Source: Antarctobacter sediminis
Lineage (GTDB): Bacteria; Pseudomonadota; Alphaproteobacteria; Rhodobacterales; Rhodobacteraceae
DNA length: 64,000 bases
Assembly: GCF_019218285.1 (NCBI RefSeq)
Contig: NZ_JAHUZG010000001.1
Coordinates: forward strand, 1,426,001 to 1,490,000
Reading direction: 5' to 3'
The notes below the pieces were generated by a model. It was given only the letters and a program-made list of their open reading frames with translations. It was not told the DNA's origin and ran no database searches. How positions within the stretch are numbered: position 1 is the stretch's first letter; each line of letters opens with the position of its first letter. A program made the translations under genes and the position numbers. Below are positions 598 to 64,000 of this stretch, piece by piece.

Positions 598-2685
598 TCA
601 AGCGGCATTGATGCCTCCCTCTGCTTGTCTCATGGTCAAACGGATCAGCGCATCCGCCGCAACCGCCCGCGTCGCGGTAGAGATCAACGGGTTGATCTCC
701 ACCTCTTCGATGTCATCCGCATGCGCCGCGACAAAAGCCTGCACCGCCTGTACGGCCGCCACAATGGCCTCCATCTCCGCGCCCGCGGCCCCGCGATAGC
801 CCGCCAGCAAGGGCGCGATCTTCAACCGGCCCAACGCGTCGCGCACATCCTGCGCCGTGACCGGCAACAACAACACCTGCGTGTCGTCCAGAATCTCGGT
901 CCAGACCCCGCCCGCGCCCAGCGTCAGCACAAAACCATGCGCCGGGTCGCGCAATACCCCCAGCAACAATTCCACCACCGCGCCCCCGACCATCTCCTCA
1001 ACAAGATAGCCCGCCGCGTCCATGGCCTCCGCCGCCGCACGGACGGCCTCACCCGTCTCCAGGTTCAGCCGCACCGCGCCCGCCTCGCTCTTGTGAGCAA
1101 AGCCTTCGCCCTTCAGCACCACGGGAAATCCGACCCGCCCCGCAGCCGCACAGGCCTCCAGGGCCGACGACACCCGCTCGAACCCCGGCACCGCCAATCC
1201 CGCCCGCGACAGCGCCGCCTTGGCGACCGCCTCGGGCAGAACACCATCCTGTGCTTCTTCTTGGTCCAAATACTCAATTTCCGACGGCTCAGCTTCCACC
1301 AACACCGGGAGCGGGGCACAGCCGCGGCCCAGAAAGGCCGCCGCCGAAATCGCCTCCTGCGCCGCGGCCATGTCACACAGCGGCACGATCCCACGTGCCA
1401 CCAGCCGTTCGGCCACCACTTCGGGCAGGGTTTCGACGATGCTGGCAAGGATCGCCATCGGCGCCTCCGCCTGCACAGCGGCCACCGCCTCGATCACCAC
1501 GTCCCAATCCTCTGCCGAACAACGGTCAGCGCGGGGGAAATCCAGCACCACCACCCCAAGGCCCAGATCCTCACCCCACATCAACCCGTCGAAACAGGCC
1601 GTGGTCGCGGTCAGGTCACCCCAGATATAGGTGTGGTAATCCAACGGGTTGGCCAGCGCCACCTTGGGGCCCAGCGCCGCCCGCAGCGCCGCCTGCTGTG
1701 CGGGCACCAGCGCAGGGAATTCAATGTCGAACCCCAGCGCCGTATCCGCCATCAGGCTCGCCTCGCCGCCCGAGCACGAGGCCGACACCACCCGGTTCGA
1801 CGCCAATGGCCCTGCCACATGCAGGATCTTGAGGGTCTCCAACAGTGCCGACAGCGACGACACCTGCGCCACGCCGATCCGCCGCAGAAAGGCACGCGCC
1901 CCCGCATCCGACCCGGTCAGCGAGGCTGTGTGCGACACCCCCGCCGCATTTGCCTGTTCCGAGGCCCCCAGCTTCAGCGCCACCACCCGTTTGCCCAGAT
2001 CCCGCGCCCGCGCCGCCAGTACCTCGAAACCGCGTATGTCCTTGATGCCCTCGATGTACAGGCCCAGCGCCGTGATACGCTCATCCTCCAGCAAGGCCAT
2101 GCCCAGCGCGCCCAGATCCACCTGCGCCTGATTGCCGACGGTCCCAAGAAAGGCAATCGGCAGCCCGCGCTTCTGCATGGTCAGGTTCAGCGCCACGTTC
2201 GAGCTTTGCGACAAGATCGCAACGCCCCGCTCGACCGGCACCATACCATGCTGGTCCGGCCACAAGGGCGCCCGGTCCAGCGCATTGACAAAGCCATAGC
2301 AGTTCGGACCAAGAACCGGCATCGCGCCCGCAGCAGACAGCAGCTCCGCCTGCAAGGCGGCGCCATCGCCCAGTTCCGCCTGCGCCTCGGCAAAGCCCGA
2401 GGCGAAACAGATCGCCCCGCCCGCGCCCCGCGCCGACAGCAGGCGCACCGCCTCGACCGTGGCCTCGCGGTTGATGCCGATAAAGGTCGCGTCGGGCACC
2501 CCGGGCAGGTCCTCCAGATGCGCAAAGGCGGGCAGCCCGCCCACGTCGGCGCGTTTCGGATGCACCGGCCAGATCGGCCCGTCGAACCCCATCTTGCGAC
2601 ACTCGCGGATCACATTGGCGCACCATGCCCCGCCGCCGATCACGGCAATGGAACGCGGGCGCAACAGGCGCGACATATCCGTCAT
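598..2685 (-). CDS. NDP-forming acyl-CoA synthetase (acetate-CoA ligase family), 695 aa
   Basis: Activates a carboxylic acid to its CoA ester using ATP, with ADP rather than AMP as product. Domains in order: CoA-binding Rossmann fold (about 5-130), succinyl-CoA-ligase-like domains (about 150-440) with the phospho-histidine in [10 protein letters not shown] (H252), and a C-terminal ATP-grasp domain (about 480-690) with the [16 protein letters not shown] segment. About 700 residues is the normal length for the fused form. The start at 2685 has an AGAGGA ribosome site. The stop is one base from the downstream BKACE start, and the acyl-CoA dehydrogenase gene lies 48 bases upstream, so this looks like a three-gene acid-activation operon. 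The substrate cannot be read from sequence; a betaine such as gamma-butyrobetaine is plausible from the neighbours. Confidence 0.9.
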
Positions 2686-9580: not shown

Positions 9581-10591
9581 ATGAAGAAGTTTCTGACGAC
9601 GGCCGCGGCCGTTGCCATTGCTGCATCCGCGGCCAGCGCGCAGGACGTGACCCTGCGTATCCAGACCCACTATGCATCCGAGCACCCCTCGGGCGTTCTG
9701 GCAGCCCAGTTCGCCGATGACGTGCAGGTCATGTCGGGCGGCGAAATCAGCATCGAGATGTTCTACAGCTCGTCCGTCGTGGCCACGACCGAAACCTTCG
9801 ACGCCGCCATCAACGGCATCCTCGACTGCGACATGACCGGCGGCGCCTACCAGACCGGCAAGAACCCGGCGTTCCAGTTCGTCGGCGACATCATGGGCGG
9901 TTACGACACCCCGTGGCAGCAGATCTCGTGGCTGTACTACGGCGGCGGTTACGACGCGGCGCAGGAACTGTACAACGCACAGGGCATGCAGCTGATCGGC
10001 TGGTGGCTCTACGGTCAGGAATCGCTGTCCTCGTCCAAGCCGATCGCCGGCCCCGACGACCTGAAGGGCTGGAAGTTCCGCTCGCCCCCGGGTCTGGAAA
10101 CCGAGATTTTCACCGAAATGGGCGCCACGCCCATCGTGATGGATTTCACCGAGATCTTTACCGCGCTTGAAACCGGCATCATCGACGGCGCCGACGCATC
10201 GGGTCTCTACAACAACGTGGGTCTGGGCCTGTACGACATCGTCAAGCACGCCACCTACCCCGGCTTCCACTCGATGCCGTCGGACCACCTGGCTTGCAAC
10301 CAGGCCGTCTGGGAAGGTCTGAGCGAACAGCACCGCCGCATCATCGACACCGCGATGCAAAAGCTGACGCTGCACACCGCCCTGTCGAACGAGAAGAAGA
10401 ACGCCGAAGCCGCGGCTGAACTGACCGCCGCTGGCGTGACGCTTTACGACTGGTCGCCGAAGGACCGCGCGGACTTCCGCAAGGCGGCGCAGACCGCTTG
10501 GGATGGCTGGGCCGCAAAGACGCCCGAAGCAGCCGCTCTGGTGGCAAGCCACCGCGAGTACCTGACCGCACTTGGCCTCATCGCCGAGTGA
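9581..10591 (+). CDS. dctP: TRAP transporter substrate-binding protein DctP, 336 aa
   Basis: Periplasmic solute-binding subunit of a TRAP transporter. The Sec signal peptide is MKKFLTTAAAVAIAASAASA, with cleavage after ASA, and the mature protein starts QDVTLRIQTHY. The conserved arginine that binds the substrate carboxylate is in GWKFRSPPG, and the DGADASGLYNNVGLGLYD segment resembles TakP/TtuC-like binders of keto and hydroxy acids. GGAGG precedes the ATG by about 9 bases, so the longer open frame upstream is ignored. An intrinsic terminator follows, which should make this subunit more abundant than the membrane parts. The diketo-hydrolase gene across the operator region suggests a sugar-acid ligand. 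Confidence 0.93.
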   Translation: MKKFLTTAAAVAIAASAASAQDVTLRIQTHYASEHPSGVLAAQFADDVQVMSGGEISIEMFYSSSVVATTETFDAAINGILDCDMTGGAYQTGKNPAFQFVGDIMGGYDTPWQQISWLYYGGGYDAAQELYNAQGMQLIGWWLYGQESLSSSKPIAGPDDLKGWKFRSPPGLETEIFTEMGATPIVMDFTEIFTALETGIIDGADASGLYNNVGLGLYDIVKHATYPGFHSMPSDHLACNQAVWEGLSEQHRRIIDTAMQKLTLHTALSNEKKNAEAAAELTAAGVTLYDWSPKDRADFRKAAQTAWDGWAAKTPEAAALVASHREYLTALGLIAE

Positions 10592-10619
10592 TCGCCGGGC
10601 TGACCGCCTCGTGACACCG

Positions 10620-10650
10620 CGGCGAGCCTTTCCCAAGGCTCGCCGTTTTT
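10620..10650 (+). terminator. Intrinsic terminator/attenuator between dctP and dctQ
   Basis: 11-base perfect stem CGGCGAGCCTT (10620-10630) with AAGGCTCGCCG (10635-10645), loop TCCC, then TTTTT. It lies inside the transport operon just after the binding-protein gene, where partial termination would raise dctP mRNA over dctQM. Confidence 0.88.
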
Positions 10651-10727
10651 GTCTCTGCCCCCCGACGGGACCGCAGGGCACACGAGGGGGCAGCTGCTCC
10701 CTTTCCTCACAAATGGAGTGACCGCGC

Positions 10728-11543
10728 ATGCAACAGGACAGCGTCTGGCTGGGTTCTCTCAGGGCCCCCGTCCGCGCCGCGATGATCGGCTTCGCCGGCC
10801 TGACCATCGCCCTCTGGGCCATTCTCGTCGTCAATCAATTCATCTCGTCCGAGGCCATCGGCATGCACGAGATGATCCGCCCCAAGGGCAAACCCATGGT
10901 GATCCTCACCCTGGCCAGCTTTGCGCTCGCGCTGTTCTTTGCCTCGCTTTACCTGAGCGACGACAAGGGCGCGATCGAACAAGACCGCACCGGTCCCTTC
11001 GACATCCTCTCACTGGTCTGTTCGCGGCTGGCCATGATGTCCATCGCCTTCATCGTGATCGTGATGTTCTACGAGGTCGTCTCGCGCTATGTCTTCAACC
11101 AGCCGACCATGTGGGCGAACGAAATGTCGCTCTGGATCGCCAGCTTCCTGTTCCTGCTGGCCGGTCTCTATGCCATGCAACAGCGCAGCCACATCCGCAT
11201 CTATGTCATCTACGACATGATGCCCCGCTGGATGCAAAAGGCGGCCGACTGCGTGTCCGTCCTGCTGATCTGGGTCTTTACCTTCTGCCTTGTCTGGGGC
11301 GGCTACAATGACGCCATGCGCCGGATGCTGCGGATGGAAACCTTCGGCACCGCCTGGGATCCACCGCTGCCGGGCACCGTGAAACCGGCCATCCTCATCA
11401 TCATCGTACTCGTCGCCATTCAGGCCCTGTCGAACCTGATCGCCGACTGGAACCGCGCGCCGGAACACCACAACCCGGCCGACGAAATCGACGAAACCGA
11501 GATCGAAAACATCCGCCGCACCTTGGAAGGGGACAACAAGTAA
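10728..11543 (+). CDS. dctQ: TRAP transporter small permease DctQ, 271 aa (long form)
   Basis: Small membrane subunit. The core DctQ domain with four membrane helices lies at about 90-250, including FYEVVSRYVFNQPTMWANEMSLW, the family signature. The protein is longer than the usual 160-200 residues because of an N-terminal extension of about 85 residues with two extra hydrophobic stretches (AAMIGFAGLTIALWAILVV and MVILTLASFALALFFASLYL). The C-terminus is acidic and soluble. The stop TAA shares its last base with the ATG of dctM (TAATG), so translation is coupled. Confidence 0.9.
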   Translation: MQQDSVWLGSLRAPVRAAMIGFAGLTIALWAILVVNQFISSEAIGMHEMIRPKGKPMVILTLASFALALFFASLYLSDDKGAIEQDRTGPFDILSLVCSRLAMMSIAFIVIVMFYEVVSRYVFNQPTMWANEMSLWIASFLFLLAGLYAMQQRSHIRIYVIYDMMPRWMQKAADCVSVLLIWVFTFCLVWGGYNDAMRRMLRMETFGTAWDPPLPGTVKPAILIIIVLVAIQALSNLIADWNRAPEHHNPADEIDETEIENIRRTLEGDNK

Positions 11544-60217: not shown

Positions 60218-62539
60218 ATGCCCCTGCCCCGCATCATACTGGCCCTGCTGACCCTCTGCATGCTGAGCCTGCTGCCCCGTATGCTGGCCGCCCAGCCCGA
60301 CGGGCGCGGTTGGCCCGGCGACTGGCAGACCTATTGGTCCACGGGCGAGGCCTTTGTCCTGCTGCAACAGCGCGGCGGCACGGTCAGCGGCACCTATCAG
60401 CCCGGCGACGGGCGGCTGACCGGCACCACGGACAACGGCGTGCTGCGCGGCACATGGACCGAGGGCAACAAAAGCGGCGGATTCATCTTTGTCCTGTCGC
60501 AGGACGGACAGAGCTTTGCCGGGCGGTTCGGGACCGGCGACTGGTGGAACGGGCACCGCGCCGAAATCGCACAGTTGCAACGCCCCGACTGGTTCAGCGG
60601 CGAAACCCCTCAGGCCACGCTGCGCAGCATCCTGACCGCCGCAAATGACGCCCAGTACCACGGGCGCGAGGGGCAGGTTCGCTGGATTGCGCCCCTGCTG
60701 ACCTATGAGGCCCCCGAGGGCGACAGTTCCGACCGGGACCGGCGGCGGCGGGCGCTGTGGCATATCCTCGACATCTCGACCTTTCGCCTGTGGGATGCGC
60801 CGATCCCGGACCCGGATGCGCAGCCCGGTGCCGAACTGGCGTTCGACATCGGCCCCGAAGGCACCGGCGCCAGCTATCGGTTGCTCTTTCAACTGGCCGA
60901 GGATGGCACATGGCAGTTGCTGGTGCCGCCCGCGGCGGTGCTTCAGGCCGATCTGGCGCGGCTGGTGGCGGCGCGCGGGCATGAAACGCTGGAAGAACTG
61001 GAAAAGGCCCGCGCTGGCAGTCCGCGCATGGTCATGATGGATTTCCTGCTGGGCACCCGGGACTGGGACGGCGCGGGCGGCGCGCGGGCGATGCGGGCGC
61101 TGGATCTGGACCATGTGCCAAGGCAATTGCGCCGCGCCGAAGGTGCGCTGATGGCGGATTACCTGCGCCAGAGCCTTGACCGCATCGGCTTTGTCACGTG
61201 GCAGGAACTCCCCGACGATCCGGAACGCCCCCTGCCCTACACCTATTACAGGCACCCGCTGGGCAGCATCACCATCGCCCCGACCGACATCCTTGACGAG
61301 GACGGGCGGCTGATCGAACGGCGCTGGCGCTTTTCGCGTGAGACGATGGAGATGCTGCCAGCGCTGTACACCGCGCTGGAGAGGATGCCGCTGGCGCCGG
61401 GCCTGCGCGCGCCGGAACCGCTGTCGCAGTTCTTTGCCACCCGCAAGGCGGTGCTGGCCAAAGGCGCATGGCTGCAACAGCGACTGTTCGGTCTGGAACT
61501 GTGGCAATGGGCGGGGCTGGCGGGATACCTCGTGCTGATGGGCGGGGCCCTGACGCTGGGCTGGCGGCTGTCGCGGCGTCTGGACGGGGCCACAGGGGCA
61601 CTGGGCCACGTGGCTGGCCAATTGGCCGGGCCGCTGGGCCTGATGGCCGCGGCCCTTCTGTTTCTTGACGCCAGCGAACGGCTGGGCCTGACACTCAGCG
61701 CCTTCGGTCCGGTGTCGGCGCTGTCGGCGGTGCTGCTGATCTTTGCGCTGGCGGCGCTGGCCTATCGCGTGATCTCGGTGGTTTTTGCGGCGTTGATGGC
61801 GCGGGCGACGCAGACGCAGGCCTATACGGATGAAATCGTGCTGTCGCTGGCGCAGGGGCTGCTCAAGCTGCTGATTGTCGTGGGGGCGGTGATCGCCTGC
61901 GCCGATGTGGCGGGCCTGCCTTACGAAGGCGTGCTGACCGGGCTGGGGATCGGCGGCGTCGCGCTGGCCTTTGCGGCACGGGAAACCGTGTCGAACATCA
62001 TCGGCGGCGCGATCCTTCTGTCTGACCGCCCGTTCCGCAAGGGCGACCTTGTCGAGGCGGCGGGCACGCTGGCGGTGATCGAAACGGTGGGCCTGCGGTC
62101 GACGCGGCTGCGGACGCTGGATGACACCTTGATGATTGTGCCCAATGCGCAACTGTCGGATCAGGTGATTTCCAACTGGGGCAGCCGCCGGAAACGGCGG
62201 GTGCTGATGCAGATCGGACTGACCTACCAGACCCCGCGCGACCGGTTGCAGGGGTTTGTCGAACGCCTGCGCGAAGTCTATGCCGCCCAGCCCGAGGCTG
62301 ACACCGACAGCGTGACCATCGGCGTCAAGACCCTTGGACCCCATAGCATCGACATCGAGCTATGGGGCCATTTCCGCGTCTTCAGTTACGAGGCGCAGAT
62401 CGCCGCGCAACAGGCGCTGATCCTCGACATCCTCGCCCTTGCCGAAGAGCTTGGCGTCGCGTTCGCCTATCCCACCCAGACCGTCCACCTTGGCAACAAC
62501 GGGTCGGACGTTCCGGCCGCGCCGGTCGACGGGGTGTAG
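60218..62539 (+). CDS. Mechanosensitive channel of the MscS family with long N-terminal domain, 773 aa
   Basis: Membrane channel that opens on membrane tension. A signal sequence (MPLPRIILALLTLCMLSLL) is followed by a soluble domain of about 400 residues, then membrane helices near residues 430-590 (LELWQWAGLAGYLVLMGGAL, AGQLAGPLGLMAAALLFL, VSALSAVLLIFALAALAY, LKLLIVVGAVIACADVAG), the pore helix GIGGVALAFAARETVSNIIGG, and the MscS beta domain with LSDRPFRKGDLVEA and a C-terminal alpha/beta part. Only the last third is family-like; the N-terminal domain is unusually long. AAGGAA precedes the ATG. It is divergent from the PIG-L gene and convergent with the B12-linked gene. Confidence 0.9.
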   Translation: MPLPRIILALLTLCMLSLLPRMLAAQPDGRGWPGDWQTYWSTGEAFVLLQQRGGTVSGTYQPGDGRLTGTTDNGVLRGTWTEGNKSGGFIFVLSQDGQSFAGRFGTGDWWNGHRAEIAQLQRPDWFSGETPQATLRSILTAANDAQYHGREGQVRWIAPLLTYEAPEGDSSDRDRRRRALWHILDISTFRLWDAPIPDPDAQPGAELAFDIGPEGTGASYRLLFQLAEDGTWQLLVPPAAVLQADLARLVAARGHETLEELEKARAGSPRMVMMDFLLGTRDWDGAGGARAMRALDLDHVPRQLRRAEGALMADYLRQSLDRIGFVTWQELPDDPERPLPYTYYRHPLGSITIAPTDILDEDGRLIERRWRFSRETMEMLPALYTALERMPLAPGLRAPEPLSQFFATRKAVLAKGAWLQQRLFGLELWQWAGLAGYLVLMGGALTLGWRLSRRLDGATGALGHVAGQLAGPLGLMAAALLFLDASERLGLTLSAFGPVSALSAVLLIFALAALAYRVISVVFAALMARATQTQAYTDEIVLSLAQGLLKLLIVVGAVIACADVAGLPYEGVLTGLGIGGVALAFAARETVSNIIGGAILLSDRPFRKGDLVEAAGTLAVIETVGLRSTRLRTLDDTLMIVPNAQLSDQVISNWGSRRKRRVLMQIGLTYQTPRDRLQGFVERLREVYAAQPEADTDSVTIGVKTLGPHSIDIELWGHFRVFSYEAQIAAQQALILDILALAEELGVAFAYPTQTVHLGNNGSDVPAAPVDGV

Positions 62540-62565
62540 GCTGCGCATTCACTGCGCAACGTCCT

Positions 62566-62868
62566 TCAGATCGACAGCCGCCGCTGCCGCGCGCCGCCGC
62601 GCCGCTGCGGGCGCGGCAAAGGCAGGTCCAGCGGCTGGCCGGGGCGTTGCAGCGATTGCCGCAACAGCGCGCAAAAGGCCGCCACCGCCGGATCGGTTTG
62701 GACGAAAGGCTGCGCCCGCAGCCATGCCCGCACGGCCTGCGACTCGTAACTGCTGTGGCCCGGCAGGCTGCCCAGCCATTGCATATAGGCCATGCTGGCC
62801 AGTTCCCGCGCCCGTTCCGGGGTTTCGGTCTGTGCCTGCAATTGAGTCAGCACTTTTTCGATCGTCAT
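62566..62868 (-). CDS. Hypothetical protein under a cobalamin riboswitch, 100 aa
   Basis: Not recognised. The start MTIEKVLTQLQAQTETPE at 62868 has a GCGGAGGGCG site just upstream. The first 75 residues look helical (ERARELASMAYMQWLGSL, QAVRAWLRAQPFV, AFCALLRQSLQRP), and the last ~25 are basic and proline-rich (RPQRRGGARQRRLSI). No signal peptide, cysteines are few (one). It is the only gene between the riboswitch (63001-63178) and the convergent MscS gene, so the riboswitch presumably controls it. An upstream ATG at 62913 has no ribosome site. Confidence 0.72.
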   Translation of the reverse strand: MTIEKVLTQLQAQTETPERARELASMAYMQWLGSLPGHSSYESQAVRAWLRAQPFVQTDPAVAAFCALLRQSLQRPGQPLDLPLPRPQRRGGARQRRLSI

Positions 62869-63300
62869 CGCGCCCTCCGCGCAAGATGGGGGACGGACAC
62901 CGGGATCAGCCATCGGGAAGGTGCAGCGCACCCGAAAGATCGACGCCGACACCGGGGCACCCCGCCCGGGTTGAGTGACTTCGGCGCCAAGTGGCACCGG
63001 CGATGGCAGGTCTCCTGACTCGCGGGTCAAGGCACGCTCCCGAACCTTCCCGGGCCGATCGGCCCAGTGGTCTTTTCGGGATGGCTCGCCGCTTACAGTT
63101 GCGGGGGCAGTCGCGGGATTGGGGCCTTGCCCCGCACCGCGTTCCCTATTCGACCGCGGGCATCCGCGGTCACCATCGACGGGCAGAGTGGCGCAGCACC
63201 GCGATCCGGTCAAGCGGTCCCTGCGGTTCCCCGGCGGCATCGGCTTGCGCCGGGATGCCGCAGCAGGGACACTGGCGCATCTATCACCGGAGCCCGCCCC
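62869..63300. other. Intergenic region holding a cobalamin riboswitch and a LysR promoter
   Basis: 432 bases between the small gene (minus) and the LysR gene (plus). It holds the riboswitch at 63001-63178 and about 120 bases on each side. Between the aptamer and the gene there are GC-rich hairpins that could act in the expression platform. Near the LysR start, GGAGCCCG lies upstream of the GTG. No other gene is seen. Confidence 0.8.
63001..63178 (-). ncRNA. Cobalamin (B12) riboswitch
   Basis: Read on the minus strand, the B12 box AGTCAGGAGACCTGCC (63005-63020) is a perfect match to the consensus. Upstream in the transcript are GCAACTGTAAGCGG and the conserved CCACTG core, with G-rich GGGAACGCGGTGC near the 5' side. 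The closing stem P1 pairs CGATGG (63173-63178) with CCATCG (63001-63006), and a further stem GACCGCGG-ATGC-CCGCGGTC lies just inside. It is followed in the transcript by the small hypothetical gene at 62566-62868, which should be repressed by cobalamin. Confidence 0.95.
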
Positions 63301-64000
63301 GTGACCCAGATCACGCTCAAGCAACTCGAAGCCTTTGTTCAGGTGGCCGACCTGTCCAGCTTTCGCCGTGCGGCAGAGCGGCTGAACACCACGCAACCCA
63401 ATATCTCGACCCGGATTTCAGCGCTGGAGTCGCTGCTGCGCCAGCGCCTGTTCGACCGCGATGCCGGGTCGGTGCGGCTGACACCGGCGGGGCGGACGCT
63501 GTTGCCGCGCGCCCGCGCAGTGCTGGGGGCGCTGGACGGTTTCCTGGCCGCCGCCGGCGAAGAACAGCTGTACGAAGGCGTGCTGCGGCTGGGCGTGACC
63601 GAAATGATCGTGCACAGCTGGCTTGGGCCGTTCCTGCGCGCGCTCAAGGCGCGGCTGCCCGCCATCGAGGTCGAACTGACCGTGGATCTGTCGGCCAACC
63701 TGTCCCCGGCGCTGTTCAGCCGCGGGTTGGACCTGACGTTGCAAAGCGGCCCTTTCGGGCGGCAGATTTCCGGCGGCGCGGACCTTGGGGCCTTTCCGTT
63801 GATCTGGGTCGCCGCCCCAGGTCTGAAAATGCATGGCCGCCCGCTGACGCTGGACCAGATTGCCCGGCACCCGGTTCTGGCTCATGCCAAGGGCACCCTG
63901 CCGCACGAACAACTGCGCGACCATTTCGCCTCGCACCCCGATGTGGACGTGCGGCTGGTGCCTTCGACCAACCTTGCCGCCTGTTTGCAGATGACGCTTG
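63301..64000 (+). CDS. LysR-family transcriptional regulator, C-terminal part cut by window
   Basis: First 233 codons of a LysR regulator. The GTG start at 63301 (MTQITLKQLEAFVQVADLSS) has GGAGCC upstream. The winged helix is FRRAAERLNTTQPNISTRISALE, with LTPAGRTLLPRA next, and the effector domain begins near residue 95 (LRLGVTEMIVHSWLGPFL). It is divergent from the riboswitch-controlled gene, 122 bases from its leader. The target genes lie outside the window or may include the divergent gene. Confidence 0.9.
   Translation, partial: MTQITLKQLEAFVQVADLSSFRRAAERLNTTQPNISTRISALESLLRQRLFDRDAGSVRLTPAGRTLLPRARAVLGALDGFLAAAGEEQLYEGVLRLGVTEMIVHSWLGPFLRALKARLPAIEVELTVDLSANLSPALFSRGLDLTLQSGPFGRQISGGADLGAFPLIWVAAPGLKMHGRPLTLDQIARHPVLAHAKGTLPHEQLRDHFASHPDVDVRLVPSTNLAACLQMTL

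Follow-up and report, generated by a model that had tools for sequence, protein, structure and literature searches.

Many marine microbes have little vitamin B12 at their disposal, and descriptions of the B12 regulon deal mostly with uptake, synthesis and isozymes; the genes known to stand under cobalamin riboswitches include btu, cob, bluB, cbi, nrd and metE. The closest described counterpart of the element analysed here is the translational RF00174 switch of the Escherichia coli btuB type, with which it shares a full aptamer, a B12 box, complementary L5 and L13, a P13 stem and a downstream Shine-Dalgarno (SD) sequence. It differs from that type in two ways: it precedes a protein family without a name in the libraries searched, not a known uptake, synthesis or isozyme gene, and the SD itself lies inside a nearly invariant hairpin. 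Five cobalamin riboswitches, this one included, were found in the 5.1 Mb genome of Antarctobacter sediminis. By position, the other four precede cobW-cobN, bluB, a run with cbiM and cbiQ, and a run with BtuF/BtuC-type genes, the last scoring below the NCBIfam cut-offs and following one unscanned ORF. Known riboswitch-controlled B12 genes thus carry the same element in this genome, and they also lie near the small gene in some relatives, whereas the 100-residue protein has no sequence relation to any Pfam or NCBIfam family. We give a probability of about 0.6 to the reading that the small gene, whose conserved product of about 100 residues has not been described before, is part of the Rhodobacteraceae B12 regulon and is controlled by the riboswitch, which probably acts as a translational off-switch.

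A covariance-model search of the window (the whole 64,000-nucleotide stretch of A. sediminis DNA analysed here) returned a single match at the Rfam gathering thresholds, a cobalamin riboswitch aptamer (RF00174) at 62988..63192 on the minus strand, which covers the full model (1-189) and scores 133.4 bits with cmscan (gathering score 31.5, E 2.3e-33). The riboswitch proposed from the sequence alone is therefore present, with a corrected extent: it had been drawn to end at 63178, and the aptamer reaches 14 nt farther. The ATG of the 100-aa ORF (P0001; 62566..62868, minus strand), which is helical by prediction and has the basic tail RRGGARQRR, lies 119 nt from the aptamer end. A GGAGG sits 5 nt before this ATG, so that the ORF start has a ribosome site of its own, as claimed. 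Beyond the ORF, the gene at 60218-62539 (+) carries the MscS beta domain (PF00924), in agreement with the earlier call of a convergent MscS gene; across the riboswitch, the divergent gene at 63301 (+) encodes a LysR-type regulator. The proposal that the ORF is alone on its transcript holds in the window but not always in relatives, where the gene can stand first or later in B12-related runs.

The ORF is present in all five other genomes of the genus at 71-77% identity, and nucleotide changes relative to the four relatives of the same length fall mostly at the third codon position (for example 15/17/38 at positions 1/2/3). By these sequence criteria it is a real gene. Across a 30-member alignment, ten columns are invariant (W31, L35, A45, A48, F65, R89, R90, G91, G92 and R97). 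The alternative that the ORF is incidental, its leader being a non-coding riboswitch RNA or reading into another gene, can draw on the window, where no other same-strand gene lies close behind the ORF, but we regard it as very improbable: the protein is kept across genera with these invariant columns, third-position changes are in excess, and both SD and start are conserved. A longer frame of 276 aa, starting at TTG, spans the riboswitch in the window. Since the frame upstream of the ATG is open for only 10-52 codons in five genus relatives and the SD-ATG context is conserved in relatives, the ATG is likely the start of the 100-aa gene, rather than this TTG.

A profile of the 30-member alignment matched 28 of 295 genomes sampled from the family Rhodobacteraceae, 27 of them credibly; the match in G194 (E 8.5e-4, 47 columns) was dropped. 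In a class-wide draw of 240 genomes, the window's own genome alone was matched. An alignment query of GTDB species genomes gave 74 named loci, all selected through one conserved peptide pattern and having some genomes in common with the family sample. They come mostly from Rhodobacteraceae; a few carry other labels (Oricola, Hoeflea, Tepidamorphaceae, Kiloniellaceae, Rhizobiaceae, Rhodospirillales), several of these being metagenome bins. A single-sequence scan of the same named genome contigs returned no match, against 74 loci for the alignment query. We discarded four single-sequence matches (L031-L034, E 5e-5 to 8e-4) as chance hits: three contain an in-frame stop, the fourth falls within an unrelated frame of 487 aa, and the profile returned none of these genomes. 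Phage records gave no match. Since fewer than one in ten of the sampled family genomes carry the gene, it is not required for B12 use as such.

The family sample had been drawn without regard to riboswitches, and 16 kb were examined at each carrier locus. In 24 of the 27 carriers, the window's genome among them, RF00174 stands immediately upstream of the small gene and in the same orientation; in one more (G272) it precedes a gbcA-gbcB-like pair, which the small gene follows, and in two (G258 and G283) no RF00174 was found in the 16 kb. At the 74 named loci we searched the 500 nt preceding the match, on its own strand, for a B12 box with at most 2 mismatches and the core GCCACTG with at most 1 mismatch within 110 nt before the box. 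Box and core stand directly upstream of the small gene at 66 loci, with a distance from box end to match start of 107-148 nt in 64 of them and of 193 and 199 nt in the other two. At four loci (L142, L145, L160 and L164) a perfect B12 box with core heads a metal ABC transporter operon that contains the small gene and either ends in it or continues past it. Contig ends cut L147 and L149 within the upstream genes, and no riboswitch was found upstream of the small gene in L156 and L176. The 74 loci, 0.8 Mb in all, contain only 11 other B12 boxes (core not required). The surroundings of the small gene vary widely among loci, and the riboswitch is kept.

Homologues thus follow a cobalamin riboswitch at 70 of the 74 named loci (66 directly, 4 through the operon) and in 25 of the 27 family carriers; they are neither absent nor scattered without riboswitches, the outcome named in advance as speaking against the sequence-only reading. 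The pairing of riboswitch and gene recurs in dozens of related, mostly marine bacteria, and we are confident that the riboswitch controls the small gene. A conserved family tied to a riboswitch and bearing no Pfam or NCBIfam name is a concrete missing piece of the B12 regulon, and it is open to clean genetic tests in laboratory bacteria that are not pathogens.

The 66 loci with a direct riboswitch and the window give 67 leaders for comparison. The L5 stretch CTGCCCCCGCAACTG (63096..63110, minus strand), one side of the kissing loop, is the same 15-mer in 66 of them. It is followed in the window by the B12 box AGTCAGGAGACCTGCC (63005..63020, minus strand) and by the P13 hairpin CCGGG-CGGGGTGC-CCCGG (62952..62969, minus strand), whose loop GCGGGG is complementary to CCCCGC of L5. 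The platform contains GCGGGG or GCGGGT in all 67 leaders. The P13 arms form 5 of 5 pairs in 50 leaders, a count flattered by taking the best of ten registers per sequence, and two-sided changes are seen (CCAGG/CCTGG, TTCAG/CTGAA). L5 and L13 are complementary in sequence, which is consistent with the L5-L13 kissing loop that corrinoid riboswitches depend on according to passages of a published study (PMC10653944).

We folded in silico, with and without L13 blocked, the 62 leaders that hold the exact GCGGGG and GCGGAGGGC. Blocking L13 lowered mean SD accessibility from 0.45 to 0.24; it fell by more than 0.1 in 27 leaders, rose by more than 0.1 in 3 and hardly changed in 32. The mean drop of 0.21 compares with 0.06 for other 6-nt blocks, and none of 5000 random draws reached 0.21. 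Within a leader, a drop in SD accessibility equal to or larger than that from the L13 block is seen for 31% of control blocks on average, and for 20% in the 27 leaders that start with an open SD. The window's own leader went just from 0.86 to 0.76, and its stability is no better than that of shuffles (z 0.18). No terminator-like sites were found on the minus strand of 62300-63500. Because the folding averages shift and the window's leader does so little, the models make a translational off-switch repressed by corrinoid likely across the family and point only weakly to translational repression for the window's copy. In such a switch, bound corrinoid would let L5 kiss L13, which would free a C-rich strand before the SD; this strand would pair with the SD, and translation would stop. 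When corrinoid is scarce, L13 would take the C-rich strand and the SD would open. We take the small gene to belong to the B12 regulon and to be expressed at low corrinoid; its product is probably a component, not described before, of the B12-shortage response. Since an activating corrinoid riboswitch is described in passages of the same study (PMC10653944), we leave the direction of control to measurement.

AlphaFold2 predicts helices at residues 3-10, 17-34, 41-56, 60-74 and 93-99 with a mean pLDDT of 83.4, lower at the tail (69 for residues 81-90 and 61 for residues 91-100); the model suggests a small bundle of helices followed by a basic tail. The first description of the ORF as unrecognised was borne out. 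Pfam and NCBIfam hold no family for P0001 (best E 0.075 across 30 members), nor do PHROGs and PADLOC at E up to 1; a sequence search of the PDB gave a best E of 0.49, and Foldseek against the PDB gave no match below E 1. We took no function from VIA-align rows at Z 7.0 (a designed bundle) and 6.5 (OrgC), since they may reflect a mere common arrangement of helical proteins. In the open-access literature searched, no title or abstract start describes the family; older comparative work on B12 elements may include the small gene without naming it.

The tail follows the pattern RRGGx(1-5)[RK][RK] in 67 of the 74 proteins, one of the 7 exceptions being cut by a contig end, and the final 22 residues of the window protein carry a net charge of about +5. 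The SD of the gene lies in a hairpin, GCGC-GGAGG-GCGC (62870..62882, minus strand), whose arms and SD are identical in 60 of the 67 leaders, the window's among them, and which also stands before a divergent homologue in L093. Tail and hairpin together would fit a nucleic-acid-binding regulator of the B12-shortage response, whose RRGGAxxRR tail binds RNA, possibly the protein's own SD hairpin (autoregulation) or other transcripts. We consider this unlikely, if not strongly so: the hairpin motif followed by ATG is unique to the small gene in 4 of 6 genus genomes, and the other two have one unshared extra site each; a basic tail may bind proteins or membranes instead; and the fold searches indicate nothing. 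The SD hairpin was also rejected as a wider regulatory site; since the motif with ATG is shared within the genus at the small gene alone, no motif regulon is visible.

The preferred reading, a role in supply, draws on the neighbouring genes. One or more genes of B12, metal-uptake or one-carbon type lie within 4 kb, on either strand, at 26 of the 74 loci (a raw count), and none of the named neighbours was seen at the other 48. Neighbour names come from sequence clusters with one representative each scanned (two for the BtuF-like cluster); nrd, cobyric acid synthase and some BtuC labels were assigned by eye. A BtuF-like protein is the commonest (12 loci), followed by the homocysteine module of a split MetH and a gbcA-like protein (7 each), an Azt-like substrate-binding protein (6) and a DUF1289-DUF6925 protein (4). 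Regulation (70 of 74 loci) and neighbourhood (26 of 74) both point to the new cobalamin-related function that had been suggested at the outset.

In the family sample, the BtuF-like protein (PF01497, Peripla_BP_2) was found in 11 of 27 carriers and 1 of 27 non-carriers (one-sided Fisher 0.001, phylogeny ignored); when only the 7 carriers with a non-adjacent copy are counted as positive, the figures are 7 of 23 against 1 of 27 (one-sided Fisher 0.013, phylogeny ignored). Two of the 11 carrier matches (G067 and G085) run through one in-frame TGA. The BtuF-like gene starts within a few bases of the end of the small gene in several loci, with an overlap in L150 as called. Examples encoded directly after the small gene are L149:1967-2761 and L142:6307-7101. 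Read by eye, the N-terminus has no evident signal peptide, and the protein may bind corrinoid in the cytosol.

Among the named partners, a corrinoid-type binding protein is the most frequent, and genes for uptake and synthesis recur nearby or share the riboswitch class in the same genome. For these reasons we tentatively propose, at somewhat less than even odds, that the protein acts as an accessory in supplying corrinoid or cobalt when B12 is short. It would work with corrinoid-binding and uptake proteins, for example the BtuF-like protein. A more general role, as a regulator or a protector of B12 enzymes, keeps some probability since the partners vary by species, a search of the window's genome did not find this BtuF-like protein, and such neighbours are absent from most loci.

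Such protection has a specific form, in which the protein would aid or restrain a B12-dependent methyltransferase (MetH, glycine-betaine demethylation) at low cofactor, for example by protecting the apo-enzyme. Parts of a split MetH lie within 4 kb, always downstream on the same strand (the homocysteine module at 7 of 74 loci, the remaining MetH part at 5 of 74), gbcA-like genes lie within the same distance on either strand at the 7 loci counted above, and L097 has the order riboswitch, gbcA-like, gbcB-like, small gene. The MetE N-terminal domain PF08267 was found in none of 54 genomes (27 carriers and 27 non-carriers), so that methionine synthesis there probably depends on B12. We nevertheless find this explanation distinctly unlikely: a methyltransferase neighbour is lacking at most loci, that of the window among them, and hhalign against the corrinoid-protein cap domain (B12-binding_2, MetH) gave a probability of 0.1 of 100 with a shallow template (Neff 1.0, 7 sequences). 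Mimicry of the cap domain of corrinoid methyltransferases was accordingly not supported by hhalign, though the MetH alignment is shallow. One weak structural row was seen against the cap domain (7xcn_M, Z 3.6, rmsd 4.1, 67 aligned). CobN does not separate the two groups of genomes (24 of 27 carriers, 22 of 27 non-carriers).

The gbcAB genes stand for an oxygen-dependent demethylation of betaine that does without B12. Riboswitches precede gbcA-gbcB-like genes (glycine betaine monooxygenase) in L097 (G272; 10588-10790, minus strand) and in L021 (G196; 1053-1248, minus strand). In the one representative scanned, GbcA and GbcB are the best NCBIfam matches, below the cut-off, and the GbcA representative is cut by its contig. 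Going by this arrangement, a B12-independent betaine demethylation of the gbcA-gbcB type may be switched on by B12 shortage. According to passages of PMC12478193, Ruegeria pomeroyi has cobalamin-dependent proteins for methionine synthesis and betaine demethylation, GbcAB is a betaine-demethylation dioxygenase, and some aerobes lack GbcAB; these statements make riboswitch-headed gbcAB-like genes plausible as a B12-free alternative.

The operon order is clear at two of the four loci with a riboswitch-headed transporter, L145 and L164: ATPase, permease, binding protein and, fourth, the small gene. L142 and L160 resemble them, but the permease frame is not cleanly called. The operons are of the AztABC/ZnuABC type; that of L145, the sole one scanned, scores below the NCBIfam AztABC cut-offs. 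AztD is a chaperone. The perfect B12 box lies about 2.9-3.0 kb upstream of the small gene at all four loci. As box and core head an Azt/ZnuABC-like operon, the arrangement suggests uptake of cobalt rather than zinc. The loci of the small gene thus suggest that B12 controls gbcAB-like genes and an Azt-like metal transporter in some species.

The DUF1289-DUF6925 protein is encoded after the small gene at L164:6340-7218 and at L100:5508-6392 (minus strand), and close to cobW-cobN the window's genome has an ORF whose N-terminus looks similar by eye. Cereibacter plasmids carry the small gene flanked by an annotated cobyric acid synthase gene on one side and an annotated ABC transporter on the other; the permease is annotated as iron-type, and we read the transporter as BtuFCD-like. 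In NZ_CP089968 the small gene is annotated as 'hypothetical protein' (WP_238823759.1) and shares one base with a DUF1289 protein gene; the annotation of CP031753 shows no gene at the corresponding position. The two Cereibacter stretches of 12 kb contain 4 and 5 B12 boxes. A second cobalamin riboswitch or B12 box is present in L090, about 1.8 kb downstream of the start of the small gene, and also in L170 and L130, in each case near nrd (ribonucleotide reductase) genes named by eye.
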